64,000 nucleotides of DNA from NCBI RefSeq assembly GCF_000382445.1, contig NZ_KB905475.1, forward strand, positions 248,001 to 312,000, read 5' to 3'. Source of the DNA: Phocaeicola massiliensis B84634 = Timone 84634 = DSM 17679 = JCM 13223. Its GTDB lineage: Bacteria > Bacteroidota > Bacteroidia > Bacteroidales > Bacteroidaceae. The notes under the pieces are model-generated. The model saw only the letters and a program-made list of their open reading frames with translations. It was not told the DNA's origin and did not search any database. The position numbers and the translations under genes are program-made. Shown here one piece after another: positions 4,569-64,000 of the stretch; positions within the stretch are counted from its first letter, which is position 1, and each line of letters starts with the position of its first letter.

Positions 4569-4666
4569 AATAGAAAAACTTTAAATTTATAAATTTAAAA
4601 AACTAAAATTGGTTATACATAATTTATTGATTCTGAGTGCTGTGCTCTCATTTCATATTTCATATA
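4528..4666. repeat. 139-bp perfect inverted repeat, left copy (partner 7506-7644)
   Basis: This segment is base-for-base the reverse complement of 7506-7644. It spans the last codons of the regulator, the 44-bp gap and the first 14 codons of gene A. The flanking coding sequence is clearly diverged, so the identity exceeds what protein conservation needs. It contains the perfect palindrome TTTAAATTTATAAATTTAAA just upstream of the start codon. Confidence 0.95.
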
Positions 4667-5110
4667 TCTTTTTGGAGATAAGCCCGTCATTTTCTTGAAG
4701 GCGGCGTAGAACGTGCTTCGCGACAGGAATCCGCAATATTGGGGTATCTCCTCGGGTGAATATTTGTCCGAACGGAGCAGTTCCTTGGCATATTCCACCC
4801 GATATTTGTTCAGTAAATCTTTCAGGTGACAGCCGAAGTAGCGGTTTATCACATTGGATAAATAAGTCTGGTTCGTTTCAATCATTCCACTTAGTTTCTT
4901 CAGCGAGATTTCCGGGTCAAGAAACACTTGGCGCACTTCCAAGTAATACAATACATATTTATATATTTCACAATCGACTTTTCTTGCTTTCTCCGGCTCA
5001 CGACCTGCAAACTTCTGCTCCCAATAAATATGAGCAGCTCTGAAAAGCAGATTTTTCTGCCTTTCGGAAGTAAAAGTGCGCTTGTCGCGGTGTAGAAACA
5101 GGTAGTCCAT
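4613..5110 (-). CDS. Short AraC-type HTH regulator of copy A (165 aa)
   Basis: The C-terminal half (about residues 68-152) reads as an AraC-family double helix-turn-helix: LSLKKLSGMIETNQTYLSNV, then NRYFGCHLKDLLNKYRVEYAKELL, then CGFLSRSTFYAAFKKMTG followed by SPKRYM. The N-terminal 65 residues are too short for a sugar-binding cupin and hold no recognisable domain. It differs from the regulator of copy B at about 26 of 165 positions. It is the first gene of an operon with surface gene A, so it is likely a co-expressed local activator or autoregulator. The start ATG is conserved with copy B, including the preceding AGAGACGATAAAAAG stretch. Confidence 0.85.
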   Translation of the reverse strand: MDYLFLHRDKRTFTSERQKNLLFRAAHIYWEQKFAGREPEKARKVDCEIYKYVLYYLEVRQVFLDPEISLKKLSGMIETNQTYLSNVINRYFGCHLKDLLNKYRVEYAKELLRSDKYSPEEIPQYCGFLSRSTFYAAFKKMTGLSPKRYMKYEMRAQHSESINYV

Positions 5111-5183
5111 TGTACTTTCTTTTTATCGTCTCTATTTCAGATAATTACTCACTTTTCAAACCCTTAAAAAAGGGTTGCGTTCG

Positions 5184-5384
5184 GTGCATCTCTTAGTAAG
5201 AGATACACCGAACGCACATAATCGCTTTATTATTAATAGTTTAAGCCGATAAAAAAGTGTCCTATAACTTAAGACTAAAGATATTTTTGCATTTGTCTTG
5301 TGATTTTTCTTCTCAAAAAGTTTTAATTATCAAAACTTTGTGTAAATTTGCAGCGAAAAGTGTATCTCTTACTAAGAGATGCAC
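5184..5384. promoter_or_regulatory. Invertible promoter of copy A, predicted OFF orientation
   Basis: Two 25-bp sites at 5184-5208 and 5360-5384 are exact reverse complements of each other. Each is itself nearly palindromic around ATCTCTTA-S-TAAGAGAT. They bracket 151 bp that contain a Bacteroides -7 box, TAAATTTG at 5343-5350, on the plus strand, with a weak T-rich -33 region near 5321. The operon to be driven (4613-5110, 1569-4568) lies to the left on the minus strand, so the box points away from it. Flipping the segment would place the box near 5218-5225, pointing at the regulator about 110 bp away. The plus-strand 76-codon frame across this region on the other strand is not credible as a gene. 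Confidence 0.8.
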
Positions 5385-5816
5385 TTTTTTTCTTCTATCT
5401 CCTAAAACTTTATTCATCACATTTCCAGATGATTGAATCTCGCTAATCATCTGTTTCGCTCCTGACTTGAGAATCTTAACGGATGTCAACATATTATAAA
5501 GGGCTAAGTCCGGATATTCTTGAAAAGGGGGAATTGTTTCCAAAGCCGGCTTAAGGGTTTTTCAACGGGCTTTTCGGGAGGTAATGGAATCGTTGAAGGC
5601 AAGTTTGAAGGGATTTGGGAAGTGCGGCTGAAACGAGAATGAGGAGGTGGTGTAATCAGTGTGGATTACAAAACATGCCGAGATTATTAGAAAGATAAAG
5701 TTTTTTTTGAAAGCGCAATGGCTTATCCGACAACAAGCGGAAGTGACGTGTGAACCTGAACGTACGCAGGCATAAGTTTATGCATTCGTATGTACTGTAT
5801 CAGGTTCCACTGTGTT
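5385..5816. other. Inner arm and spacer, no credible gene
   Basis: From 5385 to 5489 the sequence is an imperfect inverted copy of 6684-6788, for example 5472-5489 against 6684-6701 with one mismatch. It is therefore the inner end of the large A/B inverted repeat. From 5490 to 5816 I see no gene, only the downstream side of the ATPase pseudogene. Confidence 0.6.
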
Positions 5817-6411
5817 TTACATCGGGCAGTCCCAGTCCGGTGCATCTGTTTTATCGGGAGGACAATTTATACCTCTTCCATCCTTGCCAGCTCCCATCCG
5901 CAGAACTGCATCACATTGTTCCGCCGACTGTGCCTCGAACTTGTCTTTCGGGAGATATTTTAGTTCCAGAATGTAGCTGTGCTCCACCTCAGGATATCGC
6001 TGCAGGTCCGGCATGAGGAACATGTCGCAGAAACCGTGGTTCAGCTCCACTTCGGGCATGGTCAGGTAATAGGCATTGATACTCAGGTAGGCTGTGAAGA
6101 AACCTTGAATGTTCCTTTCGCCCTCTATGCTGCTGCGTACCGATGAGTTGTCCTTATAAGCGCGGGCTATAAAATCAAGGGCCGGACGCCAATCCCCGTC
6201 GAAAGTCATTCTTTCGGGAAAGGTCATAATAACTGCGGATCATATCCAGAAAAAGGCTCTTTCCGAAACGTCGGGGACGAGTAAAAATGAGGTAGTGCGC
6301 CTGATCTTCCAATAAGGGCAGATACATTGTCTTGTCCACATAATAGCAGTTCTGTTCCATCACATCCGTGAAGTTTGACATTCCGTAAGGTATACCTTTT
6401 ATCGCTTCCAT
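5817..6411 (-). pseudogene. Broken AAA-ATPase-like / PD-(D/E)XK nuclease family gene
   Basis: Two overlapping frames hold the two ends of a family protein that is usually around 500 aa. The upstream piece (6411-6175) begins MEAIKGIPYGMSNF and contains YYVDKT, LIFTRPRRFGKSLFLDM and YYD, typical of the AAA-ATPase-like domain (PF09820). The downstream piece (6227-5817) contains FFTAYL, ELNHGFCDMFL and YILELKYLPK, typical of the C-terminal PD-(D/E)XK nuclease domain (PF08011). The middle of the protein, about 300 residues, is missing, the frames are shifted, and the end after AEQCDAVLRM is abnormal. It lies between the two invertible promoters and is probably a passenger remnant. Confidence 0.8.
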
Positions 6412-6788
6412 AATCTATTCTCTTTTTGAGTTTAGTATGAAGGGCAAAGTGATGATGCCTTTCACACTAATTTCTCATAAACAGGCGGTTTCAGCAGTTG
6501 TTATGTGTGAAAGGAGGTATGCAATAAACTTTCTACCGGGTTAATTTTTGCCTTTTTCTTCTTTTTATCAATCGATAAAAGTGTTTTAGAAAAAGACTTT
6601 GTTCTTTTTGAAAAACACTTAAGTCTTTCTCAGAAACTCCTTGGTCTTTTTTGAAAACTTCAAGGTCTTTTCATTATGATACATTGACATCTGTTAAGAT
6701 TTGCGAGTTGGATGTAAAACAAATGATTGATGGTACTTAACTTGTTGGGGATGTGGTGAATAAGATTTCAGGAGAAAGAAGAAAAAAA
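6412..6788. other. Non-coding spacer with degenerate short repeats
   Basis: The stretch 6570-6675 has several degenerate copies of an AAGTCTTT...GAAAA motif. From 6684 it becomes the inner arm of the A/B inverted repeat. I see no gene. Confidence 0.5.
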
Positions 6789-6988
6789 GTGTATCTCTTA
6801 CTAAGAGATACACTTTTCGCTGCAAATTTACACAAAGTTTTGATAATTAAAACTTTTTGAGAAGAAAAATCACAAGACAAATGCAAAAATATCTTTAGTC
6901 TTAAGTTTCAGGATACTCTTATGCTCACTTAAATAATTAATAATAAGTTATTTATGCGCGATTGTGTATCTCTTAGTAAGAGATGCAC
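6789..6988. promoter_or_regulatory. Invertible promoter of copy B, predicted OFF orientation
   Basis: The 25-bp sites at 6789-6813 and 6964-6988 are inverted repeats of each other (24 of 25 match) with the same ATCTCTTA-S-TAAGAGAT core as the copy A sites. They enclose 150 bp. The -7 box TAAATTTG lies at 6823-6830 on the minus strand and points left, away from the regulator at 7062. Inversion would put it near 6947-6954, facing the regulator. The sequence outside 6988 (CGAACGCAAC then a T-run) matches the outside of the copy A site at 5184. Confidence 0.8.
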
Positions 6989-7061
6989 CGAACGCAACTC
7001 TTTTTTAAGGGTTTGAAAGATGTGTATTTATTTGAAATAGAGACGATAAAAAGAGAGTACA

Positions 7062-7559
7062 ATGGACTACCTGTTTCTACATCGCGACAAGCGCACTTTT
7101 ACTTCCGAAAGGCAGAGGAATCTGCTCTTCCGGGCTGCCCGGCTTTATTGGGAGCAGAAGTATGCGGACAGCGAAGTGGTTCCGAAAAGGAAAGTCGATT
7201 GTGAGCTATATAAATATGTATTGTATTATTTGGAAGTGCGCCAAGTGTTTCTTGACCCGAAGCTTTCACTGAAGAAGCTGAGCAATATGATTGAAACGAA
7301 CCAGACTTATCTGTCGAATGTGGTCAACCGCTACTTCGGTTGCCATCTGAAAGAGTTGGTGAACACGTATCGGGTGGAATATGCCAAGGAACTGCTCCGT
7401 TCGGGCAAGTGTCCGCCGGAGGAGCTGCCCCAACGCTGCGGGTTCCTGTCGCGAAGTGTGTTTTATGCTGCTTTTAAAAAGGTGACGGGTGTTTCTCCCA
7501 AACGTTATATGAAATATGAAATGAGAGCACAGCACTCAGAATCAATAAATTATGTATAA
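7062..7559 (+). CDS. Short AraC-type HTH regulator of copy B (165 aa)
   Basis: This is the paralogue of the regulator at 4613-5110, about 84% identical, with the same layout: an uncharacterised N-terminal 65 residues, then an AraC double HTH (LSLKKLSNMIETNQTYLSNV, CGFLSRSVFYAAFKKVTG, SPKRYM). It precedes surface gene B by 44 bp and follows an invertible promoter. The start was chosen by conservation with copy A; the two 5' regions are nearly identical for more than 100 bp. Likely a local co-transcribed activator of its surface protein; its target is inferred from position only. Confidence 0.85.
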   Translation: MDYLFLHRDKRTFTSERQRNLLFRAARLYWEQKYADSEVVPKRKVDCELYKYVLYYLEVRQVFLDPKLSLKKLSNMIETNQTYLSNVVNRYFGCHLKELVNTYRVEYAKELLRSGKCPPEELPQRCGFLSRSVFYAAFKKVTGVSPKRYMKYEMRAQHSESINYV

Positions 7560-7644
7560 CCAATTTTAGTTTTTTAAATTTATAAATTTAAAGTTTTTCT
7601 ATTATGAACAAAAAGTTTTTAAGTGCAATCCTGTTCGGAGCCTT
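7506..7644. repeat. 139-bp perfect inverted repeat, right copy (partner 4528-4666)
   Basis: This is the exact reverse complement of 4528-4666. It marks the outer boundary of the A/B inverted repeat and lies within the start of gene B. Confidence 0.95.
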
Positions 7645-10297
7645 GATGGTTACCTCGACAGGAACATTTGTGTCTTGTAAAGACTACGATGATGACATTG
7701 ACGAAATCAATAAAGAGTTGACGGAAATCAAGTCTCAGATCGCAGCTTTGGAAAGCGCTGTAAACAACGGTGACTATGTGACCGGTGTTACTCCTACCGC
7801 TGACGGTAAGGGTATGATTTTTACTTTCTCCAAGGGTAGCCCTGTAACGGTTACTTTGAATGTAAAAGATGGTGAACCAGGTGAAAGTGCTCAAAAAATT
7901 ACTTTTGACGAAAAAACAGGCGAAATGTTGGTTGACAATAAGCCTACAGGTATTTTCCCTGCAAAAGATGCAGAAAAAGCTCCCGTTAAGATTGAAGGGG
8001 GATATTGGGCCGTGTTGAATGACAAAGGTGAATATGACGTAACTGAAATTCCTGTTTCGGGTGTTACTGCAGTAGTTACTGATGGTATTTGTACATTGAC
8101 TGTATTCAATGCAGATGGCACTACTACTGTAGTTGAGTTGCCTACTACTTCTTCTACTATCACAGAACTTGAAGTAGTTGGTTATTTGGACGCTAAGGGT
8201 GATTTTACTGCATTCTCTGATGCTGCTTCTCACGATAACAAATATGAGATGGGTTACTCTGCTTTCTATACAGCTACTAAGGCGCCTTGGGAATGGGTGG
8301 ATGCCGATGAATCTCAAAAAGTAAAAGGTGAAATTGCTGCCAAAACAGGTGTGGTTTCTCTTGCTGGTCAGTCTTTGGTGATTCGTGTAGCTCCCGCTTC
8401 TGCTGATTTATCAACAGTGGCTATGTCTTTGGTTAATTCTAAGATGGACGAAGCTCCTATAACTTTAGGTACTCCCGAAGCATTCAAAGGCTTGGTGACT
8501 CGTGCTGCTTCTGCTAATGGCTTGTGGGCTATTCCTTTGTCGAGCAAGGAATTGACAGGTTTGAATGCTTTGACTGATTTGACTGGAAAATTTGGTGGTG
8601 AAATAGAGGATGATGAGTTTAATATTGCATTTGCTGTAAAGACTCCAAACTTCTTGTCAAACTTCAACTTGGCATTCAATAAGGTTGAATTGGATGCGGT
8701 GAGTGCTTCTCTGAATAAGAAAAAGTTGGTTGAGGCTACACAGAAAGGAAGCACTAATATTTATGAATCTACTTCTGGTACAGAAGACAATGCTTATGTG
8801 ATTGTTAAACAAGGTACACCAAATACCTTTACTTTTGATGTTCCGACTTCTGTTTACAAGAGCCAAATTATTGTAGATGAATATATAGCTCAGAACTGGG
8901 GTGTTGTGATTGATGGTAATTCATTTACAGTAAATAAGTATAATGACAAACAGACAATTCCTTCATTCCCTGTTTATTTCAACTATATTCAACTGACAGA
9001 AACGGGAATCAAATCTGTAACTCAGACTGTATGGGTTCGTATGGAACGTACAATTAAGGATCAGGTAGTTCTCGATCCTGTTAACCATATCATTCCTGCC
9101 AAGGCTGCTGATGATAAGTTTACAGTTTCTTTGGACAAGATGTTCAATGAAATGACAGCTGAAGAAAGAGTTAATTGGAATAAATTTGCTCACGACATTG
9201 TGACTGTGATTAAACAAGTAAATCCTGACGGTGATGATATTACAGTTACAGGATTTGATGATGATAATATTGCTTATCTGACAGCAGACAATAAGCCTGC
9301 TACTTCAGCTCTCAATATTGCTAAGTTGCAATTCATTCCGAATCACGAATGGAATCAAGAAACATATCCATTTGATAAGGAATACTACATTGTTTCTGAT
9401 TTCGAGGATGAAAACGGTGACGTATTGAGCTCAGTTAAGATTCCTTTGACCGTAGGTATCCCTGCGTTGTCAACTCTGTTGCAGAAAGAGCAGGTAGTAT
9501 TTGGTGGCACTAACAATGGTACTGGCGTATTGAATGAAATGGATTATGCTTCTGACAACAACGCTGTATTCTACTCATTGAAGTATGCGTTTAAAAACCA
9601 GTTGAAGGATGCTTTCGAAAATGAAAATACTGTTAAATTCATTATTGATCCTCAACAGAAAATAGAAGGTAATCCGGTCGTAGACTTGGCTCACATGGGT
9701 ACAGGCGAAAAGCGTACAGGTGTTAATCAGGCTATTGTTTTGGATGATAAGGAAAAGGCTTACAACACTCCGATCAATATCTTGATTGATGGTGAAACTA
9801 CTAAGTATGTTGGTAAGTACACTTGGTCAGACAAAGAAATCAAAGATAATGCTTTCACTATTAAGATTGTCAGTCCGATTGAGCAAGGTATCGTTGAAGC
9901 TGCTAGTGGTGATATAATCGAAGTGGTTGCTACAGAAGATGGTACAGCTAAATTGACTGATGCTGATTTGACTACTAAGACTTATGCTAAGGTTGAATAT
10001 AATATCTTCAAAGATAAGTTTAAAGACAATGAAACAACAGCTGATTTGTGGACCAGTCCATACATGAAGGGTATCTCATTCAAGTCTATGAACGAGAATA
10101 CTATTAAAGCTATTGCTAATGAAGACATTAAGCCTGCAACTAAGGTTAAAGATACAGTAACTCCTGGTTATGTAGTTTTGAGACCGATGAATGTTGCTTA
10201 CGAAGGCACTACAGAAGTAGAGGTTAAAGTAACAGACGTTTGGGGTTACGCTAAGACTGCTACTGTTAAAGTGAAAGTTCTTGCAGAAAAGGAGTAA
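7604..10297 (+). CDS. Phase-variable S-layer-type surface lipoprotein, copy B (897 aa)
   Basis: It shares the leader MNKKFLSAILFGALMV...FVSC (Cys25) and KDYDDD with the other three copies, then diverges. Residues 32-55 (IDEINKELTEIKSQIAALES) are coiled-coil-like. A GYWAVLNDKGEYDVTEIPVSG segment, split here as GYWAVLN and DKGEYDV, near residue 135 parallels VWEFLNANGEY in copy C. The long remainder is strand-rich and Thr/Lys/Asp-rich, and ends in VTDVWGYAKTATVKVKV, matching the C-terminal DxWGY motif of copies A and C. The family is recognised from memory as phase-variable S-layer proteins. The cognate promoter is read as OFF, so this gene is probably not transcribed in the configuration shown. 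Confidence 0.8.
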   Translation: MNKKFLSAILFGALMVTSTGTFVSCKDYDDDIDEINKELTEIKSQIAALESAVNNGDYVTGVTPTADGKGMIFTFSKGSPVTVTLNVKDGEPGESAQKITFDEKTGEMLVDNKPTGIFPAKDAEKAPVKIEGGYWAVLNDKGEYDVTEIPVSGVTAVVTDGICTLTVFNADGTTTVVELPTTSSTITELEVVGYLDAKGDFTAFSDAASHDNKYEMGYSAFYTATKAPWEWVDADESQKVKGEIAAKTGVVSLAGQSLVIRVAPASADLSTVAMSLVNSKMDEAPITLGTPEAFKGLVTRAASANGLWAIPLSSKELTGLNALTDLTGKFGGEIEDDEFNIAFAVKTPNFLSNFNLAFNKVELDAVSASLNKKKLVEATQKGSTNIYESTSGTEDNAYVIVKQGTPNTFTFDVPTSVYKSQIIVDEYIAQNWGVVIDGNSFTVNKYNDKQTIPSFPVYFNYIQLTETGIKSVTQTVWVRMERTIKDQVVLDPVNHIIPAKAADDKFTVSLDKMFNEMTAEERVNWNKFAHDIVTVIKQVNPDGDDITVTGFDDDNIAYLTADNKPATSALNIAKLQFIPNHEWNQETYPFDKEYYIVSDFEDENGDVLSSVKIPLTVGIPALSTLLQKEQVVFGGTNNGTGVLNEMDYASDNNAVFYSLKYAFKNQLKDAFENENTVKFIIDPQQKIEGNPVVDLAHMGTGEKRTGVNQAIVLDDKEKAYNTPINILIDGETTKYVGKYTWSDKEIKDNAFTIKIVSPIEQGIVEAASGDIIEVVATEDGTAKLTDADLTTKTYAKVEYNIFKDKFKDNETTADLWTSPYMKGISFKSMNENTIKAIANEDIKPATKVKDTVTPGYVVLRPMNVAYEGTTEVEVKVTDVWGYAKTATVKVKVLAEKE

Positions 10298-55564: not shown

Positions 55565-56089
55565 AGCAATTATTAGTTGATTGGGAAACAAAGATAATGA
55601 ATTTTGTTCAAAAGCATGAATAATCCTTTTCAAGATATACTGTTGCTATGCATTATGTATAAAGGATTCTTTTATTATAAGTCAAAATTAGAGAATAACT
55701 TACTAGTTGTAAACAAAATCGATATTTTGTTAAATGATGTTGTTCTGTGAACAAAAAAATAGGTAAATGGCTGCTTTCGCAACTTTTAGTCGGTAATTTG
55801 AATGATTGTTATGTTAGAAGACATATATCTTCTTTTTTCTGAAATTTTAAAAGAATGTTTTTTTGTTCTTTTTGGGTACAATAAAGTCATCTCCAAGTTT
55901 GAACTTCCTATGTTACATGGGGGTTACGTGCATCAACTTTTATATATATAATAATGTGTATAGCCTTTCTTCCGGTTTATTTAATGTGTGACAGTATGCA
56001 TTTTCTACGCTTTTACAGGTAAAAAATATGTGAATATTCCTATTTCTTAAAAAAATCCTGTGTTTTATAAATATTTTTAGTGGAAAGTG
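55565..56089. other. Intergenic region upstream of copy C
   Basis: I see no gene and none of the ATCTCTTA-type invertible sites found at copies A and B. One weak hairpin with a T-run (AGAAGA-CATATA-TCTTCT, 55816-55833, then T5) is the only structure noted. Confidence 0.5.
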
Positions 56090-56119
56090 TTGCAGAATAG
56101 AGTAAAATGGGTACTTTTG
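56090..56119 (+). promoter_or_regulatory. Fixed promoter of copy C regulator
   Basis: TTG at 56090-56092, a 19-bp spacer, then TACTTTTG at 56112-56119, pointing at the regulator ATG at 56159. The predicted leader is about 33 nt. No flanking inverted repeats were found, so this promoter looks permanently oriented ON. Confidence 0.72.
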
Positions 56120-56158
56120 TCCGATGAAATTATGGCTATTATAGAAACTGACTAAAAA

Positions 56159-56641
56159 ATGATGGATGCCCTTTTTCGATTACCGAACAATGATCTTTCT
56201 GCCGCTTTACAGAAAGATAAGCTGTTTAAGGAAGTGGAACAGCAGTGGAATACTGTGTCGTCTGAGGAAGGAAACTCTAGAAGAAAGGTCGATTATGAAA
56301 TCTATAAAAGTATTGTGTATAACTTAGAAGTAAGAAAAGTATTTCTAGATCCAAAGCTTTCTTTGGTGAAGTTTAGTTCAATAGTCGGCACGAATACTAC
56401 CTACCTGTCGAATGTCGTCAATCATTACTTTAAATGCAACTTTAAACATCTATTAAATAAGTGCCGTGTAAAATATGCAAAACTCTTATTAGACAAGGGT
56501 AAGTATACCCCGGAAGAGCTTGTCAAGCTCTGTGGATTTACATCCAGAAGTGTCTTCTATTCTGCTTTTACTAAAGAAGTTGGCATGGTCCCTTCACGGT
56601 ACCCCGATAAATCATTCAAAATTCCTTTGAAATACGATTGA
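56159..56641 (+). CDS. Short AraC-type HTH regulator of copy C (160 aa)
   Basis: It has the same architecture as the regulators at 4613 and 7062 but is more distant: KVDYEIYKSIVYNLEVRKVF, LVKFSSIVGTNTTYLSNVV, NHYFKCNFKHLLNKCRVKYA, and LCGFTSRSVFYSAF followed by TKEVG. The double HTH occupies about residues 70-150. Bases 56386-56441 inside it are an exact inverted copy of 62382-62437 in the truncated regulator of copy D. It precedes surface gene C by 61 bp and is probably its activator. Confidence 0.83.
   Translation: MMDALFRLPNNDLSAALQKDKLFKEVEQQWNTVSSEEGNSRRKVDYEIYKSIVYNLEVRKVFLDPKLSLVKFSSIVGTNTTYLSNVVNHYFKCNFKHLLNKCRVKYAKLLLDKGKYTPEELVKLCGFTSRSVFYSAFTKEVGMVPSRYPDKSFKIPLKYD
56386..56441. 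repeat. 56-bp perfect inverted repeat in regulator C (partner 62382-62437)
   Basis: It is identical to the reverse complement of 62382-62437, in the same codon phase (GGC ACG AAT). Regulator sequence on the downstream side diverges at once, while on the upstream side copy D has no regulator sequence at all. Confidence 0.95.
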
Positions 56642-56662
56642 GTCCTTTGATTAATAATAAAC

Positions 56663-56738
56663 AATTGAGTTTTTAAATTTATAAATTTAAAGTTTTTCTA
56701 TTATGAACAAAAAATTTTTAAGTGCAATCCTGTTCGGA
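56663..56738. repeat. 76-bp perfect inverted repeat at start of gene C (partner 62008-62083)
   Basis: It covers the 20-bp A/T palindrome, the ribosome-binding region and the first 12 codons of gene C, and equals the reverse complement of 62008-62083. Confidence 0.95.
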
Positions 56739-59387
56739 ACCTTAATGGTTACCTCGGCAGGAACATTTGTATCTTGTAAGGATTACGATGACGACATCGA
56801 TAATCTTCAGGGACAAATTACTGCAAATGCCGATGCTATTAAATCTTTGCAAGAACTTGTAAATGGCGGTGATTATGTGACTGGTGTAGAGAAAACAGAT
56901 GCCGGTATTGTGTTTACTTTCAGTAAGAGTGGTTCTAAAACTATTACACTGGACACTGCAGAAGATCATGGTCAGGTCTTTGAATTAAAGAATGGCGAAA
57001 TCTACGTTGATGGCAAAGCAACCGGTATAAAGCCTGCTGCAGATGCAGAAAAGGCTCCAGTAAAGGCAGTTGATGGAGTTTGGGAATTTTTGAATGCCAA
57101 TGGCGAATACCAATCTACCGGTATACCAGTATCGGGTGTGACTGTGGTTGGTTCTCAAGCAGATGGCTTTACTTTAACCATTGTGGATAAAGACGGAAAG
57201 TCAACAGAAGTAAAAGTTCCTTCTGCAGCTTCACTTATTACTTCAATCGTTTTAAAAAATGATGCATCTACCAACGGATTTGTTATTAGTAAAGCTACAT
57301 TTACTAAACCTAGCAAATGGGCCGGCAAAAAAGAATTGCCTGCTGACAAATCAGTTGTCTATTCTTCTTCTACTATTGATATTCGTGTCAACCCGGTAGA
57401 TGCTCCTGCTACGGAAGCAAAATATTATCTGACTAATACAAAGAACCAAACTTTGAGTAATATTGCTTTAGATGCTGAAGCAGAAAGTGCTGACGATGCA
57501 ATTACGATTGGTGGTATCAACGGTCGTGCAGCTAATACCGGTAATGGACTGTTTACGTTAAGCATGAAGCAATATATCTTATCAAAGGATGATGCTAAAG
57601 CATTTGACAAAGAATTAACAGATAATGCAAAGGCTCGTGATATGGATAATACAAGTGTTACAAATTTTAATGATTGTGTAGCATTTGCTGTCAATGCAAA
57701 CAACAAGGCACGTTCTGCTTACAATTTACCTATTGGAACTAAAGTAGCTGCTGATTTGACTAAGATTCAAGTGAAAGATATGGCTTCTTCTGAGGCTACG
57801 TTAGCTGCGTCAAATCCTACTAAAAAAGAAATCACCGTTGTTGTTGGTAAAACATATACTATTAAAGAAATTGCAGATGAAGCCGGATTAATGTACGATA
57901 TGTATTTCTCATTGGCAGAAGTAGACAAAAAGACTTATGGTGTGACTTATGATGATTTGACTCATACATTTACAGTTGCCAATAACCCGGACGTTTCTAC
58001 TGCTGCAACAGGTTTTGACTTGACTATCAATACATTGTCAACTAAAGGCCAGGTTAAAAAGGCTGTTTATACAGTTAAGTTGAGTTCTGCTATCGAAACA
58101 CCATCTACTTATGAAGCTATTACTTATGATGTAGCCAAATTAAAAGATACTGATGCTTCCAATGATGCATTTACTCTCGATATGGACATCATGAAGACAG
58201 CTCTTGGTGATAAGTGGGCTCAATGGGCTAACACCGTAGGTCTTGATAAAACAGCATGCGCTATTTATACAAAGGCGGATTGTAGCGATACTCCTAAACA
58301 AGTTGGAGTAACTGGTCTGAAGATTACTTTAACCGCTTCAGATAAAACAACTCCAGCAACGGTTAATAACTTAAAATACATTGTTGTCAAAGTAGATAAA
58401 GCGAATGCTGATGACTTGAAACTTGATAAGCAATACTACTTGAAGGTTACATTCAAAGATAAGGTAGGTACTGCAGAAGTCAACAATATCGTTGTTCCTG
58501 TGACATTTACAGCTCCTTCTGTAGCAAGCCAATTTGAATTGAAGCCTGGTTACGTTGTAGATGGAACTATCAATGCTTACTATTACGATCTTACAGAGGA
58601 TACAAAGAAGAACATTGCATTGAGCAGATATTTTGCAAAATCTGACGCTAATGCAGTTGTTGCCCTTGATACAGAAAAAGAAGTTAAGGCTAAGGACAAT
58701 CACTCTTATCGTTCTGGCGGTTTGGCAACATTGAGTGAAGCTACTATGGCCGGAAATGTAACATTGAATGCTTCTGCTACAGACAAAGACGGTGGCAATG
58801 CTGTCGCTCCAGATGCTACTACCGGTAAAGAATTTGGTTATGGCGAAACTCTGACTGTTAAAGCAACGAATGATAAATATTCTGATACAGGATGGACATA
58901 TAGCACAGACAGCAAGAAAGCTTATAGCTTCACTATCAAGATTATGAGCCCGATTATGGAAGGTACGGTCAAACCGGTTGAAGGTTCTACAATCAAAATC
59001 AGTGCCAATAGTACTAAGGGATTTGACATTACCAAGGCTATGATTACCGGTGTAGACTACAATAAGAATCCTTATAATGTAGTACCGGATAAGGACGTTA
59101 CTTCCGATCCGACTAATCAAGTAGACAATACTGTGAAGGCTTGGGATAATGAGCAGATTGCAAATGTATACGTAACTAAGAAAGGTGACGATAATACTTA
59201 TATCAAGGATATAACTTTGATAGGTCAAAAAGCTAAAACAGCCGATGCTGCAGCTGTTGCAGGTGCTATTAATGTAAAAGCAGATCCTCTGCCTAATGAA
59301 CAAGAAACAGCTATTATTGTAAATGTGAAAGATGCTTGGGGCTATACTATTTCTGAAGAAGTTTCAGTAACTATTCTGAAAAACTAA
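56703..59387 (+). CDS. S-layer-type surface lipoprotein, copy C (894 aa)
   Basis: It shares the leader MNKKFLSAILFGTLMVTSAG...SC (Cys25) plus KDYDDD, then a coiled-coil-like stretch (NLQGQITANADAIKSLQELV). A segment VWEFLNANGEYQSTGIPVSG parallels copy B. The rest is a long Thr/Lys/Asp-rich, strand-predicted region ending in VKDAWGYTISEEVSV, with the DxWGY end motif of the family. Of the four copies it is the one whose operon has a correctly oriented consensus promoter and an intact regulator, so it is probably the surface protein expressed in this genome state. Confidence 0.8.
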   Translation: MNKKFLSAILFGTLMVTSAGTFVSCKDYDDDIDNLQGQITANADAIKSLQELVNGGDYVTGVEKTDAGIVFTFSKSGSKTITLDTAEDHGQVFELKNGEIYVDGKATGIKPAADAEKAPVKAVDGVWEFLNANGEYQSTGIPVSGVTVVGSQADGFTLTIVDKDGKSTEVKVPSAASLITSIVLKNDASTNGFVISKATFTKPSKWAGKKELPADKSVVYSSSTIDIRVNPVDAPATEAKYYLTNTKNQTLSNIALDAEAESADDAITIGGINGRAANTGNGLFTLSMKQYILSKDDAKAFDKELTDNAKARDMDNTSVTNFNDCVAFAVNANNKARSAYNLPIGTKVAADLTKIQVKDMASSEATLAASNPTKKEITVVVGKTYTIKEIADEAGLMYDMYFSLAEVDKKTYGVTYDDLTHTFTVANNPDVSTAATGFDLTINTLSTKGQVKKAVYTVKLSSAIETPSTYEAITYDVAKLKDTDASNDAFTLDMDIMKTALGDKWAQWANTVGLDKTACAIYTKADCSDTPKQVGVTGLKITLTASDKTTPATVNNLKYIVVKVDKANADDLKLDKQYYLKVTFKDKVGTAEVNNIVVPVTFTAPSVASQFELKPGYVVDGTINAYYYDLTEDTKKNIALSRYFAKSDANAVVALDTEKEVKAKDNHSYRSGGLATLSEATMAGNVTLNASATDKDGGNAVAPDATTGKEFGYGETLTVKATNDKYSDTGWTYSTDSKKAYSFTIKIMSPIMEGTVKPVEGSTIKISANSTKGFDITKAMITGVDYNKNPYNVVPDKDVTSDPTNQVDNTVKAWDNEQIANVYVTKKGDDNTYIKDITLIGQKAKTADAAAVAGAINVKADPLPNEQETAIIVNVKDAWGYTISEEVSVTILKN

Positions 59388-59410
59388 TAATTTAGTACCT
59401 CATATAAATG

Positions 59411-59440
59411 AAAAAGCACCCACAATTATGGGTGCTTTTT
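59411..59440. terminator. Bidirectional terminator between copies C and D
   Basis: AAAAAGCACCCA (59411-59422) pairs exactly with 59429-59440. The A-run and T-run on either side make it a terminator for both converging genes. Confidence 0.9.
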
Positions 59441-59463
59441 TATTTATACATATGAAAAGCCTG

Positions 59464-62043
59464 TTACTTCTTATATTCAATTGTCGCCTGAGTTTTGATT
59501 CCTGCGTAGTCTGTGAAAGTAACCACCAGTTCACCTCCCTGACCTGCATTCAAGCCAGTAATTTTCACACCGGTATCACCTGCTTCCAAAGTAACACTAC
59601 CACCTGCACTTTCTGCAGATTTAGCGAAGCCAACTTTGATTGTTGCACCTGAAGTGGCATTAGCTGTAGAAACTTGATATCCGCCTAGTTTATTAGAGGC
59701 ACTTGCAGATGCAGGGATAGCAGTGGTACTTACTGCAATTTCTTCATCACCATATTGCAATGCAAGACCATTTTTCGGTTTGTTTGCAGTTTTGTCTTCT
59801 GTGAGAGCTGCAATAATACCGTCTGCATTAACAGCAGCTACTGTACCTGCAACACCGTTCGTATAGTAAACCAACTTAGCTTTGTTGAAAGCAGGAGCAA
59901 GTTTCATGGTAAACTCTTTAGATACTGAGATAGTATTGTCTGCTGCAGCATTACTTGCACCTGTCAAAGCATTAACTGTTACAACTTCCTTGTTGGCTTT
60001 TACTTTGTAATCAGTAGTTTTAAGGAAGCCATCTTTAACGACGTCTGTGAAAGTAATTGAAGCTGCCTCTTTAACCTCACTATTATCAACTGCTGCTTTC
60101 TTGTATGTATAAGTATAGCCCGGCTGAGCATCAGTCATACCAGTACCATCAGCCTTTTTGTTAATAGTATACAAGTTAGTTGGCATTGTAAATGCAGGAC
60201 TATTACCTGAGTTATCAATTACAGAACTTAATATGCCTTCATTCCATCCTGCATATTGATTTGCAGTATAATAGTCATCGAATTCAGGTTTAGAAACTGT
60301 TACAGGAACAATTACCTTCTTCAATTCATTACCCTGAGCATCTTTCAATGTCAAAGTCAAATTGAATGTACCGTAGATGTTTGCAAGGTCTTTGGCTGCT
60401 GTTGTATACTTGCTGCCAGTATAGTTCAAAGTAATAACAGCTTTGATAGCATTGCGTGCAGCAATTGTTGCAGCACCGCCATCTGCTTTCTTGAATGCAA
60501 TAGCAGTGTTTTCAGCCACTTTATACAATCCATCACCAATAGAAGTTGCACTAGTCAGAGCAAAGAAGTTACCGTCTGCAGTAGTTACAGTTGTTTTAGT
60601 TGCATCTGCATTCTGAGCGATGTTTGCATCCAAGTTGGTAAAGATAGTACCCAAATCAACAGAGAACGAGTTCACTGTGCTGATTTTGATGCTAACCGGA
60701 GCAACAGTTTCTGTCTCAGATACAGAAGCACCTGCAATCGTAAGGACAACGTCCTTTTTAGCAATCTTGCCTGTGATATCAAGAATGTTAACAGTAACGC
60801 TTAAACCGAGAGTTGCAGCAGCAGTAGCAGGAACAGTAATGTTCATACCGTCTACCGTGATACCCTTGGCTTCGGCTAAAGTTTTACTTGCGCCTTCGAA
60901 TGTTAAATAAGAATCATAAGCCTGAGCTGCAGTAGCGGCATTAAGTGACAAAGTAGAAGTTCCTAAAGCCACGTTTGCACTTGCCAACCCAATATTGGCT
61001 TTATTATAAGCCGTGTTAGTCTTGCTTTCGTTTACGGTCTGAGTGTCAATAACATATTCATATCCTGTCATTACAGTACCGTTCACAGCCAAAGCATATT
61101 TCACGTTTTTATCTACACCGTTTACTTTCTTGGTGAAAGCAGTGGCAATATTGTCAGCGGTAACTTCATCGGTCATTGCAATAGCCAAATTCCATTTTCC
61201 GCTAGGTGAAGCGGCACGATCGGTTACATAGTCGCCTTCTGCAGCTGTAGCTGTAACAGTAACAGGAGCTGTTTTGCCATCGATGTCCACCAAAGTCAAT
61301 TCTTGTGCACCCAAATCATAAGAAGCGGGAGTAACAGTAGCAGTTTCACTTCCCAATTGACCAATCAAGAGTTGCCCTGCAGCCACATTGCCTTTCTTAC
61401 CTGCCCAAGTTACATCGGCACCGGCTTTTGACCATGCGATATTTTTACCTGAAGTCCAATTGCTCGGAGTTGCATTAAGTGCTGTCAGAGCCGAAGAAGA
61501 AGTCGGCAGGGTAATTTCCTGCATCACGCCTGCTTCATTGGGGATGTGCAGAACCACCGAATCGCCTTTCTGTACAGCCCACGCGTTACCTGACGCCTTA
61601 TATTCAGACTTCACGAATGCCTTGGTTGCATCATCATAGAAATACCAGAAGCCGTCCTTTACATAAGGAGCAGTGCTTTCGCCCTGGGGAGTAGTGCCTG
61701 TAGTGGCAAAGAAGCCTGTAGGAGTACCGTCGATGCTGATTTCACCTGTTGTCTTGTCGATGACAACCGTGCTGCCTGCAGGTGTGCCGGCAATAGTCAG
61801 GTTGTAAGAAGTACCGTCGCTGACAGATACTTTCAAACCGCCCTCTACAGATTCAATCTTGGTTACATAAGCGCCACCGGTGGTGACTTTCGATTCAAGG
61901 TCTGAAAGCTTTGACTTGATATCGGTCAACTCCTTGTTGATGTTGTCGATGTCATCGTCATAGTCTTTACAAGACACAAACGTTCCTGTAGAGGATACCA
62001 TCAAGGCTCCGAACAGGATTGCACTTAAAAATTTTTTGTTCAT
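59464..62043 (-). CDS. S-layer-type surface lipoprotein, copy D (859 aa)
   Basis: It has the shared leader MNKKFLSAILFGALMVSSTG...SC (Cys25) and KDYDDD, a coiled-coil-like NINKELTDIKSKLSDLESKV close to copy B, and a segment GFWYFYDDATKAFVKSEYKA parallel to copy A. The body is very Ala/Thr/Lys-rich, and the end (VVTFTDYAGIKTQATIEYKK) is a variant of the family C-terminus without the WGY. The frame is intact, but its cognate regulator upstream is cut off. A fair promoter lies far upstream on the same strand (62955-62926), so transcription cannot be excluded. It looks like a reserve cassette for the C expression site. Confidence 0.78.
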   Translation of the reverse strand: MNKKFLSAILFGALMVSSTGTFVSCKDYDDDIDNINKELTDIKSKLSDLESKVTTGGAYVTKIESVEGGLKVSVSDGTSYNLTIAGTPAGSTVVIDKTTGEISIDGTPTGFFATTGTTPQGESTAPYVKDGFWYFYDDATKAFVKSEYKASGNAWAVQKGDSVVLHIPNEAGVMQEITLPTSSSALTALNATPSNWTSGKNIAWSKAGADVTWAGKKGNVAAGQLLIGQLGSETATVTPASYDLGAQELTLVDIDGKTAPVTVTATAAEGDYVTDRAASPSGKWNLAIAMTDEVTADNIATAFTKKVNGVDKNVKYALAVNGTVMTGYEYVIDTQTVNESKTNTAYNKANIGLASANVALGTSTLSLNAATAAQAYDSYLTFEGASKTLAEAKGITVDGMNITVPATAAATLGLSVTVNILDITGKIAKKDVVLTIAGASVSETETVAPVSIKISTVNSFSVDLGTIFTNLDANIAQNADATKTTVTTADGNFFALTSATSIGDGLYKVAENTAIAFKKADGGAATIAARNAIKAVITLNYTGSKYTTAAKDLANIYGTFNLTLTLKDAQGNELKKVIVPVTVSKPEFDDYYTANQYAGWNEGILSSVIDNSGNSPAFTMPTNLYTINKKADGTGMTDAQPGYTYTYKKAAVDNSEVKEAASITFTDVVKDGFLKTTDYKVKANKEVVTVNALTGASNAAADNTISVSKEFTMKLAPAFNKAKLVYYTNGVAGTVAAVNADGIIAALTEDKTANKPKNGLALQYGDEEIAVSTTAIPASASASNKLGGYQVSTANATSGATIKVGFAKSAESAGGSVTLEAGDTGVKITGLNAGQGGELVVTFTDYAGIKTQATIEYKK

Positions 62044-62083
62044 AATAGAAAAACTTTAAATTTATAAATTTAAAAACTCAATT
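62008..62083. repeat. 76-bp perfect inverted repeat at start of gene D (partner 56663-56738)
   Basis: It is the exact reverse complement of 56663-56738, about 5.3 kb away. Confidence 0.95.
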
Positions 62084-62118
62084 TGTTTATCGTTTTTAAA
62101 GGACTTGGTTTCATTGAT

Positions 62119-62454
62119 TTATATGACCTGCTGTTGATGTATTTCATTCTTTCCCAATGAGTTTTCCATTGTCCCGGAGAAGCCGGAACAGGTTTCCGCA
62201 GCTTTTTCCCTCCGCTTCCGGTAATGTGCCGGTGGAATTCCCATTATTTTACCGAATGCATCATAGAACACACTTCTGGAAGTGAACCCGCAACGCTTGT
62301 CAAGCTCGGTGATATCGCATTCGTTGTGGTCTATCAGGTGCTTGGCGTGAAGGATGCGGTATTTGTTCAGCAAGTGTTTATAGTTGCATTTAAAGTAATG
62401 ATTGACGACATTCGACAGGTAGGTAGTATTCGTGCCGGTTGCAACAAGAGGATA
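62119..62454 (-). pseudogene. 5'-truncated AraC-type regulator of copy D
   Basis: The reading frame holds only the C-terminal double HTH: GTNTTYLSNVVNHYFKCNYK, LNKYRILHAKHLIDH, then CGFTSRSVFYDAFGKIMGIPP and HYRKR. The N-terminal 75 residues present in the other three regulators are missing. Homology stops exactly at 62437, the end of the 56-bp repeat shared with regulator C, and an in-frame stop lies at 62457-62455. The first ATG in frame (62373) would give only 84 residues and lose the first HTH helices. It is a remnant or, by inference, a silent 3' cassette. Confidence 0.85.
62382..62437. repeat. 56-bp perfect inverted repeat in truncated regulator D (partner 56386-56441)
   Basis: It forms the very 5' end of the remnant regulator; sequence beyond 62437 is unrelated to any regulator. 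Confidence 0.95.
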
Positions 62455-62756
62455 TTACGTTGATTATCAGTGGTATTTGAGAAAGAGAGGCAATTCGGGA
62501 TTTATCCCTTATTTTGTATAGATTCCATATAAGCATTGGAGGTATTCCACAATTTCATCAAAAGAAATAATATTAACAGGCAAGGGAAGAAATGGGATGT
62601 TATCAGAGTAAAACGAAAGAGGCATACAATCCTCACACTAATGTTATACTGTCAAATAAAAAAACGTTTTTCATCTAAAAAAGATCGTTGTTTTTCGTTA
62701 TTATCATGTTTCCGTAAAAAGGGAAATAAATCCCATAAATAAAATGTCCCTCCTTC

Positions 62757-62787
62757 TTGTCCGGTTCCCCTTAAAAGATTATCTTTG
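62757..62787 (+). promoter_or_regulatory. Orphan promoter pointing right
   Basis: TTG at 62757-62759, a 20-bp spacer, then TATCTTTG at 62780-62787. No plus-strand gene follows within the window. Confidence 0.5.
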
Positions 62788-62925
62788 CTAAGGATAATAA
62801 AATTTTCTGTATCTGCCTGAATGACAGTTTAGAGTAGAAAAGAAGAAAGTTATTGGTAACGATTTAGCGACAATGTAACTTCAGTAAAGTTCTGTGCTTT
62901 GCATTTCGTCAAACAACTCTTTGTG

Positions 62926-62955
62926 CAAAGGTAACGCAAAAAATGAATATAGCAA
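62926..62955 (-). promoter_or_regulatory. Possible distant promoter for copy D
   Basis: On the minus strand TTG (62955-62953), a 19-bp spacer and TACCTTTG (62933-62926) fit the consensus. It points toward the truncated regulator and gene D, 465 bp away. Confidence 0.55.
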
Positions 62956-63087
62956 GAGAAGTTCTGCAAAAATCTAAAGATTAAATCATTACTCTTTTTA
63001 TAGGCATATTAGACCTTGTTTAAATCCGAATACCATTACCCCATAAATAGGGCAACCGTATTCAGGTTATAACATAGCCATAGAACA

Positions 63088-63128
63088 ATCCCCTGCCAGC
63101 AGTGAACAATCACTTGCAGGCAGGGGAT
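63088..63128. terminator. Strong nested hairpin downstream of the 91-aa gene
   Basis: ATCCCCTGCC (63088-63097) pairs exactly with 63119-63128, and an inner AGTGA/TCACT stem sits in the loop. It lies 41 bp past the stop of the minus-strand gene at 63169. Confidence 0.75.
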
Positions 63129-63168
63129 ATTTCTTTTTCCGGCTATGCGAACTTTCTTATAGTACCAT

Positions 63169-63444
63169 TTACTTGATGACCTCTTCAAAAGCCGTGTCCA
63201 TCGCTTCGTAATGGTCACCATCGTGCAGGCTTAAGGCGGCGACAAAACTGTTTAAGGTACGAATGGCATCCAAACGATGCTCCGTGCTTTGTTCTTCAAT
63301 ATTACTCAATACATCTATTGCCGTAGTCAGATGTCCTTTCAATTCTTGTAATGCTGACAAATCCTGAATCGGCAATAAATAGAAAAGTTCATTACTGCCC
63401 AAAGATTTCACGATGCCTTGTAGGGCTGTTGCTTGTAGTTTCAT
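63169..63444 (-). CDS. Small helical protein of unknown function (91 aa)
   Basis: I do not recognise a family. The sequence (MKLQATALQGIVKSLGSNEL..., ...LHDGDHYEAMDTAFEEVIK) is acidic at the end, without cysteines, signal peptide or membrane segment, and looks all-helical. Its gene status is supported by a TATCTTTG box (63652-63645, minus strand) that would give a leader of about 195 nt with strong secondary structure, and by the hairpin after its stop. Small genes like this are common in Bacteroides mobile elements, but the link is only a guess. Confidence 0.6.
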   Translation of the reverse strand: MKLQATALQGIVKSLGSNELFYLLPIQDLSALQELKGHLTTAIDVLSNIEEQSTEHRLDAIRTLNSFVAALSLHDGDHYEAMDTAFEEVIK

Positions 63445-63463
63445 ATGGTTATTATATTAAAAA

Positions 63464-63599
63464 TGACGTAACTCTGCCAATCCACAAACTCAAGGCATCG
63501 CCAAACGCCCAATGCAAGATGAACCGGCAGGTTACGTCAAGATATAACCTTTCCAGTCCATTTACTTCTTGCATTTGGAAATTGGCGATTTCTGAGTTT
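63464..63599 (-). promoter_or_regulatory. Structured leader with interleaved inverted repeats (pseudoknot-type)
   Basis: Repeat arm a (63464-63478, TGACGTAAC..TGCC) pairs with 63526-63539. Arm b (63486-63518) pairs with 63568-63599 in three blocks: AAACTCA, ATCGCCAA and ATGCAAG. The order a-b-a'-b' means the two helices interleave. A further hairpin CGATGC/GCATCG lies at 63621-63637. All fall between the -7 box at 63645 and the 91-aa gene, so they would be in its mRNA leader. Confidence 0.6.
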
Positions 63600-63644
63600 A
63601 AGTAAACGAACAAATTACCACGATGCTATTTGCATCGCTGAGTG

Positions 63645-63652
63645 CAAAGATA
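63645..63652 (-). promoter_or_regulatory. -7 box of the 91-aa gene
   Basis: TATCTTTG on the minus strand; no -33 match was found at the expected distance. Confidence 0.5.
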
Positions 63653-63736
63653 GAAAAAAGAAAAGAATATATCTTCTCCTACCATTTATTTCTCAGCGAA
63701 TGATATACAAATCAATGATTTGAGGAAATACAAGTA

Positions 63737-63758
63737 CCATAGTAGGCAACTACTATGG
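63737..63758 (-). terminator. Perfect hairpin with GCAA loop
   Basis: CCATAGTAG pairs exactly with CTACTATGG around GCAA, 33 bp past the stop of the right-edge gene. Confidence 0.6.
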
Positions 63759-63790
63759 CATCAATATAATACAATTCCAAATCTGCCTCT

Positions 63791-64000
63791 TCATTCGTTT
63801 ACCTCCATTTGACTGATTATACATTCTATCGCATCAGTCATTTTCGTTACATGGGCAAAGGTATTTACGGGTTCTTCACGGACAAACAAGGTCGAGCCGC
63901 AAGCGGTTCTGATAAAAATCTTCCTGCCGTACTGCGTCCGGAGAGTATTTTTCTCATAAACCTTGTTTGTCCTAAACCCTACACCATTATCGCCCCTGAA
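63791..64000 (-). CDS. C-terminal 69 residues of an unrecognised protein (5' end off window)
   Basis: The frame is open from the right edge to TGA at 63793-63791 and ends ...TKMTDAIECIISQMEVNE. The visible part (GFRTNKVYEKNTLRTQYGRK, IFIRTACGSTLFVREEPVN) shows no motif I can name. A hairpin terminator follows. Its neighbourhood with the 91-aa gene suggests an accessory segment. Confidence 0.5.
   Translation of the reverse strand, partial: FRGDNGVGFRTNKVYEKNTLRTQYGRKIFIRTACGSTLFVREEPVNTFAHVTKMTDAIECIISQMEVNE

Follow-up and report, generated by a model that had tools for sequence, protein, structure and literature searches.

The 64,000-nt window analysed here is part of contig C4 (362,245 bp) of the 4.65-Mb genome of Phocaeicola massiliensis B84634 (G000; 15 contigs). 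Between window positions 56090 and 62537 it carries a small regulator gene, two surface-protein genes and an inverted repeat, which most probably belong to a site-specific cassette switch: an array of cassettes would be spliced behind one promoter and one regulator start by a linked tyrosine recombinase. In layout, as judged from the DNA, the locus resembles a shufflon with an unusual splice point, inside the gene of a transcription regulator. Coordinates are those of the window unless prefixed with a contig or locus name.

Recombination sites, constant start and exchangeable ends

The elements of the proposed switch within the window are as follows (ORF, open reading frame; aa, amino acids).

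56090-56119, plus strand: expression-site element resembling a promoter (TTG, 19 bp, -7 box TACTTTTG at 56112-56119), 47 bp ahead of the regulator start, with the box at the same place in relatives
56159-56385, plus strand: constant regulator start, codons 1-75 and two bases of codon 76 (227 nt), from the ORF list
56386-56441, plus strand: putative recombination site, expression copy, with the proposed crossover CGGCACG (56386-56392) and the conserved right arm AATACTACC, from the shared left edge and the six genome copies described below
56386-56641, plus strand: exchangeable end C of an AraC-type regulator with HTH_18, from ORF and profile match
62119-62437, minus strand: start-less regulator end D, 181 aa when fused to the constant start, with HTH_18, from frame analysis and profile match
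62382-62437, minus strand: putative recombination site, D copy, inverted relative to the expression copy, from repeat comparison and genome search

A sequence-only reading of the window had described a perfect 56-bp inverted repeat with both arms in the same codon phase, and self-comparison of the window bears this out. The copies at 56386-56441 and 62382-62437 both encode GTNTTYLSNVVNHYFKCN, and a simple calculation shows that a perfect match of this length would hardly ever arise by chance within 64 kb; in the 81-nt alignment of the arms, all 9 mismatches come after base 56, within the next 25. A second inverted repeat (56641-56803 and 61943-62105; 163 nt, 86%) spans the leader and signal-peptide region. 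At up to 3 mismatches the genome contains six copies of the site, three per strand and all on C4 (304386, in the window regulator; 310437, at D; 328824; 338780; 345937; 353111), against no match for the same pattern read backwards. Inverted and direct copies together form an array of about 49 kb, four of them lying 18-43 kb past the D copy and outside the window. The two-state, 6-kb switch first proposed thus keeps its alternative in-frame ends, cut at the repeat and each with a surface gene, but gives way to a six-site array: one site lies in a full-length regulator, and the remaining five precede start-less regulator ends, which are followed by surface genes.

In all 12 sites of three genomes (G000 and the relatives G008 and G060), identity has a common left limit at CGGCACG. 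Several kinds of left flank occur; about 100 bp are common to four silent sites in G000, and the recombinase-side flanks of G008 and G060 resemble each other. One core base sorts the sites by pair, being G in C, D and two others and A in those designated C' and D', which is consistent with exchange mainly inside a pair.

The window regulator (56159-56641) is a 160-aa AraC-type protein: C scores 50.3 bits and the D end 55.6 bits with the HTH_18 profile, above its cut-off of 33.6, and the closest named regulator is a P. faecalis record (93% over 160 aa). The element at 56112-56119, which we take to be a -7 box from the Bacteroides consensus, occurs 47 bp ahead of the constant start in all four genomes inspected (G000, G008, G060 and a second P. 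massiliensis strain). At the five silent G000 sites no such box was seen in the readable flank within -300 to +350, the upstream flank being partly read at two of them; a similar box occurs at one of the four silent sites of G008 and G060. Regulator D indeed has no N-terminal part, as had been claimed: a stop lies in its frame 6 codons upstream of the site and no ATG, GTG or TTG intervenes; at all nine silent sites of the three genomes the upstream frame hits a stop after 3-16 codons without a start codon. The five silent G000 ends match the regulator from residue 70-75 onward. Joined to the 75-codon start, the silent ends give open frames of 157-181 aa (5/5 in G000, 3/3 in G008, 1/1 in G060), including the predicted in-frame fusion of promoter and start to end D, which is open over 181 aa. 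Across the 18 shared codons, 30 of 30 within-group comparisons have 0 or 1 synonymous difference and no amino-acid change, whereas unlike ends show 13-22 synonymous differences over the next 60 codons in ungapped comparison. Between species, the silent ends carry 7 synonymous and 2 non-synonymous changes (end A) or 7 and 3 (end E) and their frames stay open; this mostly synonymous change suggests that the fused protein matters.

In the proposed mechanism, the one expression site would give the promoter and the first 75 codons of the small AraC-type regulator. Each cassette would open with a site (crossover CGGCACG, right arm AATACNACC), in which the first part of the DNA-binding domain is encoded as well, followed by a regulator end and a surface gene or operon particular to that cassette. 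The tyrosine recombinase at the far end of the array, beside ruvB, would recombine the expression copy with a cassette copy; between inverted copies this would produce inversion, so that the shared start acquires a different regulator end and surface gene, while direct copies would lead to excision or be reached via two inversions. We infer from the sequences that the recombinase acts on these sites, that inversion is its usual reaction and that the silent cassettes are unexpressed.

The linked recombinase and rearranged relatives

In G060 and G008 a gene for a 372-aa tyrosine recombinase lies next to ruvB, its 3' end facing the last silent cassette. Relatives of this recombinase (E ≤ 1e-70) occur in 21 of 61 Phocaeicola genomes, 10 of them at least 66% identical and 11 at 46-56%. 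The site lies 89-116 bp past the last recombinase codon (distances derived from match coordinates) in nine of the ten genomes with the closer homologue, seven of these sites being exact and two having 2 mismatches; the tenth genome, G026, has a contig that stops 87 bp past the recombinase. With up to 2 mismatches allowed, the site is absent from the 11 genomes with the more distant homologue. Four of the 40 genomes without a recombinase at E ≤ 1e-70 (G007, G028, G033 and G036) give site matches, which were rejected as real sites because they have 2 mismatches, lack the recombinase and face a backwards control that matched in 5 of 61 genomes. Among draft relatives, 9 of 13 site matches fall within 200 bp of a contig end, as expected for a sequence present in several places or arrangements. 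A regulator homologue (E ≤ 1e-30) is found in 10 genomes, in nine of them together with the recombinase; G022, the remaining one, carries a regulator and a surface gene next to ruvB and lacks the site. By these matches, the locus is conserved in part of the genus.

Two recombinases at C4:353669-356153 were considered as the native invertase and set aside: they sit among mobile-element genes (Mob-like, named by eye) and were not seen among the listed ORFs of the G060 and G008 loci, whereas the 372-aa gene by ruvB is shared. A more distant relative of the recombinase lies beside mnmA in L159 (G017), near three surface genes of the same direction that share about 200-330 bp at their starts; no regulator was seen in the stretch read, which is perhaps a variant with its splice point elsewhere.

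The natural REARRANGEMENTS (n = 2) comprise the exchange of active and silent ends seen on comparing G060 with G008, and the emptied array of P. massiliensis TSDC17.2-1.1. G060 and G008, each on one contig here, are collinear up to the site. Cassette A stands behind the shared start in G060, while G008 has it as a silent copy that is 95.8% identical over 4,657 bp counted from the site, with 58 of 60 residues of the regulator ends in agreement; the active end of G008 agrees with the silent end of G060 in 56 of 60 residues; each one's active slot thus has the regulator end that the other stores. The sequence-only reading had suggested comparing strains for swapped C and D positions; in these two relatives, an exchange of active and silent positions is found for the regulator ends. 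The surface genes do not correspond: the G008 active end is followed by B and the G060 silent end by E, which is silent in both genomes. After the expression site, G008 has a tail-to-tail pair of cassettes like that of the window, its sites being separated by 6.1 kb. P. faecalis, where the surface genes are arranged the other way round, was rejected as proof of a swap: it is a draft with N in one site and a perfect 161-bp leader repeat.

In TSDC17.2-1.1 (OY726034) the shared start leads into the site and then directly into the recombinase-side flank, with 9 bp shared at the junction inside the site; the 372-aa recombinase gene is unsplit, as it is in G008 and G060, and no other site is present in the 140 kb read. 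OY726034 and the source genome are 99.4% identical over 4.4 kb beside the locus, and the other contigs of the strain were covered as far as the plasmid collection includes them; among plasmid records, this one from P. massiliensis is the sole match to a G060-type locus. The recombinase-side site in P. massiliensis is nearly palindromic, with 9 of 10 arm positions symmetric. According to PMC11852207, artificially symmetric shufflon sites yield excision besides inversion, which would explain the product in TSDC17.2-1.1.

The record OY726034.1 (L170-L172, 146 kb) is labelled a plasmid, is collinear with the chromosome here and is probably a mislabelled chromosomal contig; its sole annotated feature is a short predicted vanS fragment (L171:30954-31115).

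In the isolate of the window, the recombinase gene is broken at the HxxR motif, with mobile-element genes flanking both sides of the break: contig C2 carries the piece for residues 1-322, next to ruvB, and C4 that for residues 311-371, next to the last site. The ends of the element lie on different contigs, so that their linkage is deduced from the gene and from synteny. The genome has 38 matches to PF00589, two being these two pieces. The array of this isolate is probably locked, unless another tyrosine recombinase serves the site.

Weighing the alternatives

Several points weigh against the switch in the form proposed. The inversion first proposed has exchanged cassettes in relatives and a second strain rearranged at the repeat in its favour, which is evidence from comparison of sequences, but the inverted junctions that it predicts were not observed in the genomes compared. 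The relatives share ancestry, and counts of co-occurrence among them are not independent. The rearrangement in TSDC17.2-1.1, although within the species and exactly at the site, is a loss and not the predicted inversion, and it could be a non-specific deletion through the shared 9 bp. In 11 of the 12 sites the left arms are barely symmetric (3-5 of 10 positions), and switching is probably blocked in this isolate by the mobile element that splits the recombinase. Finally, C4 carries a second, inverted C/D pair at about 345.6-353.1 kb, at 98.2% and 98.8% in two readable pieces. Between the two C copies (C4:304382-308441 and 349065-353115), which are separated by 49 kb, 2,400 alignment columns show no difference; the first 600 columns contain 14 differences and roughly the last thousand, which reach into gene D, contain 59. 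Because the copies differ in clusters, assembly collapse was rejected for the second pair. Identity inside with divergent ends requires copying or conversion besides inversion.

An integron-like platform, on which cassettes would be excised and captured as circles at the shared start while the array grows and shrinks and inversion stays secondary, is an unlikely account. It would accommodate the emptied array of TSDC17.2-1.1 and the unlike make-up of the cassettes, one of which has four genes and whose content varies between species. The pairs beside the expression site in G000 and G008 are, however, tail to tail, which favours inversion; no circle was seen; and the recombinase reaches 65 bits with the NCBIfam model for integron integrases, TIGR02249, far from its cut-off of 265, which places it outside that family.

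We consider it improbable that the array is shaped by RecA-dependent homologous recombination or gene conversion between the repeated ends and leaders, with no site-specific enzyme. The sharp left edge is common to all 12 sites despite several kinds of left flank, and the recombinase has an adjacent site in nine of ten genomes; the match between C and D is perfect over just 56 bp, and the 9-bp match at the emptied-array junction is short for homologous recombination. On the other hand, similarity between the repeats does continue past the core, over 163 nt (86%) in the window and 418 bp (97.8%) in G008, and the two C copies, alike over 2,400 columns and divergent at both ends, look as conversion would leave them. 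That the sites are relics of a past rearrangement in an array no longer switched in this lineage is very improbable: the split recombinase here and the emptied array in the other strain would suit it, but the recombinase is unsplit in TSDC17.2-1.1, G008 and G060, and the silent ends stay open, with mostly synonymous change between species.

The site-specific cassette switch can be compared with what defines a shufflon. Three sites in each orientation are found in G000, two and two in G008 and two sites only in G060, where at least three in both orientations would be expected; a linked recombinase is present in G008 and G060 and split in this isolate, and the exchange is in frame.

Regulator specificity, surface genes and known systems

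In the predicted structure (mean predicted local distance difference test score, pLDDT, 81.7), the crossover falls between helix 69-76 and the recognition helix 80-91 of the first helix-turn-helix. Among the four distinct G000 ends, 18 residues including the first recognition helix are identical, and the mean difference is 51% in the 30-residue linker between the helix-turn-helix motifs and 33% in the second helix-turn-helix region, whose recognition helix is changed at few positions. Of the joint switch of antigen and regulator specificity that had been proposed, the alternative surface genes are supported, but a change of specificity is not established, with the first recognition helix identical and the second largely conserved; on these comparisons such a change by end exchange is possible. 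The paired ends of G008 differ at one residue in 60, so that a 6-kb inversion there would alter the surface protein and hardly the regulator. More tentatively, exchange of the DNA-binding half might retarget the regulator, one event changing both the local surface gene and which of about ten paralogous regulator/surface loci in other parts of the genome are on; the variable linker between ends and the silent ends seemingly kept by selection speak for this reading, which we regard as doubtful. Ten further full-length paralogous regulators are present in G000, 49-53% identical and nine of them with a surface-family start close downstream.

The remaining features of the window locus are the following.

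56703-59387, plus strand: surface protein C, 894 aa, active slot, from the ORF list, with a weak DUF4988 match under the curated cut-off
59403-59448 (C4:307403-307448), no strand: 46-bp imperfect palindrome between the convergent surface genes, self-complementary at 91% and terminator-like, its function being presumed
59464-62043, minus strand: surface protein D, 859 aa, silent slot, tail to tail with C, from the ORF list
62438-62537, minus strand: left flank of about 100 bp, common to three other silent sites and some solo copies, from self-comparison

Surface proteins C and D have a common signal peptide and 26% identity over 635 columns, and the genes after the five silent ends belong to the same surface family. 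The surface C region is 92.7% identical in DNA to P. faecalis. An NCBIfam search with C and D gave no match, and a PDB sequence search with C gave none at E ≤ 0.1; the fold model of C (mean pLDDT 61; best PDB query template-modelling scores 0.10-0.15) was not used. The cassette at C4:328824 has four genes, for a 915-aa protein, two OmpA-type proteins and a DUF4369 protein; the 915-aa protein matches the N-terminus of the BT1927 S-layer family model at 81 bits, below the cut-off of 1300, and so falls outside that family.

In viral contigs, surface protein C matched at 8 loci, over just its first ~41 residues; 5 stretches fitted the regulator C pattern, none of which was confirmed; and the 21-bp site had no match. 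Plasmid records contained no s3/s4 cassettes, and Rfam gave nothing at gathering scores over 55600-64000.

Elsewhere, a possible second invertible segment is seen at window positions 4471-7701, where two divergent paralogous regulator/surface pairs have long inverted repeats (arms of at most 515 nt, 88%) and palindromes such as GTGTATCTCTTAGTAAGAGATGCAC; a tyrosine recombinase at C4:245982 lies just outside the window start. Conjugative-element genes (PcfK and TraM by Pfam) lie between cassettes at C4 ~311-327 kb (L038, L039), and an ORF at C4 322356-324191 resembles a group II intron reverse transcriptase, judged by eye.

Silent alternatives to a single expression site that has a constant start are known from vsa of Mycoplasma pulmonis, sap of Campylobacter fetus and hsdS. 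In vsa and sap the crossover lies inside the surface gene itself, unlike the regulator crossover here; inversion at hsdS likewise swaps a DNA-recognition part, that of a restriction-modification subunit. A SusC/SusD shufflon of B. fragilis, with the invertase Tsr0667, was reportedly described by Nakayama-Imaohji in 2009. There too, according to PMC11852207, a tyrosine recombinase of the Bacteroidales exchanges alternative surface genes of one cluster by inversion; in the present locus it is the gene of a regulator, upstream of the surface gene, that contains the proposed crossover. The R64 shufflon with Rci is similar in its several sites, one tyrosine recombinase and constant start with alternative ends (PMC11852207); Rci, however, exchanges the end of a pilus tip protein, whereas here a regulator end and whole downstream genes would be exchanged. 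The BT1927 S-layer locus of B. thetaiotaomicron, to which the N-terminal match of the 915-aa protein offers a likeness below cut-off, is switched by an invertible promoter according to PMC12548429; here the promoter would stay fixed and the cassettes would move. In the open full-text literature, with most subscription journals outside the scope, no title or abstract describing the locus was found.

If the proposed switch is real, gut Phocaeicola would vary a surface protein in a manner unlike the usual invertible promoters of gut Bacteroidales, with a fixed promoter, moving cassettes and a crossover inside the regulator. Inverted repeats several kilobases apart may escape scans aimed at short invertible promoters, and the split recombinase of this isolate would offer a natural example of how a mobile element locks such a switch. 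Should the regulator also be retargeted, the locus would be a recombinational master switch for the surface-protein repertoire.

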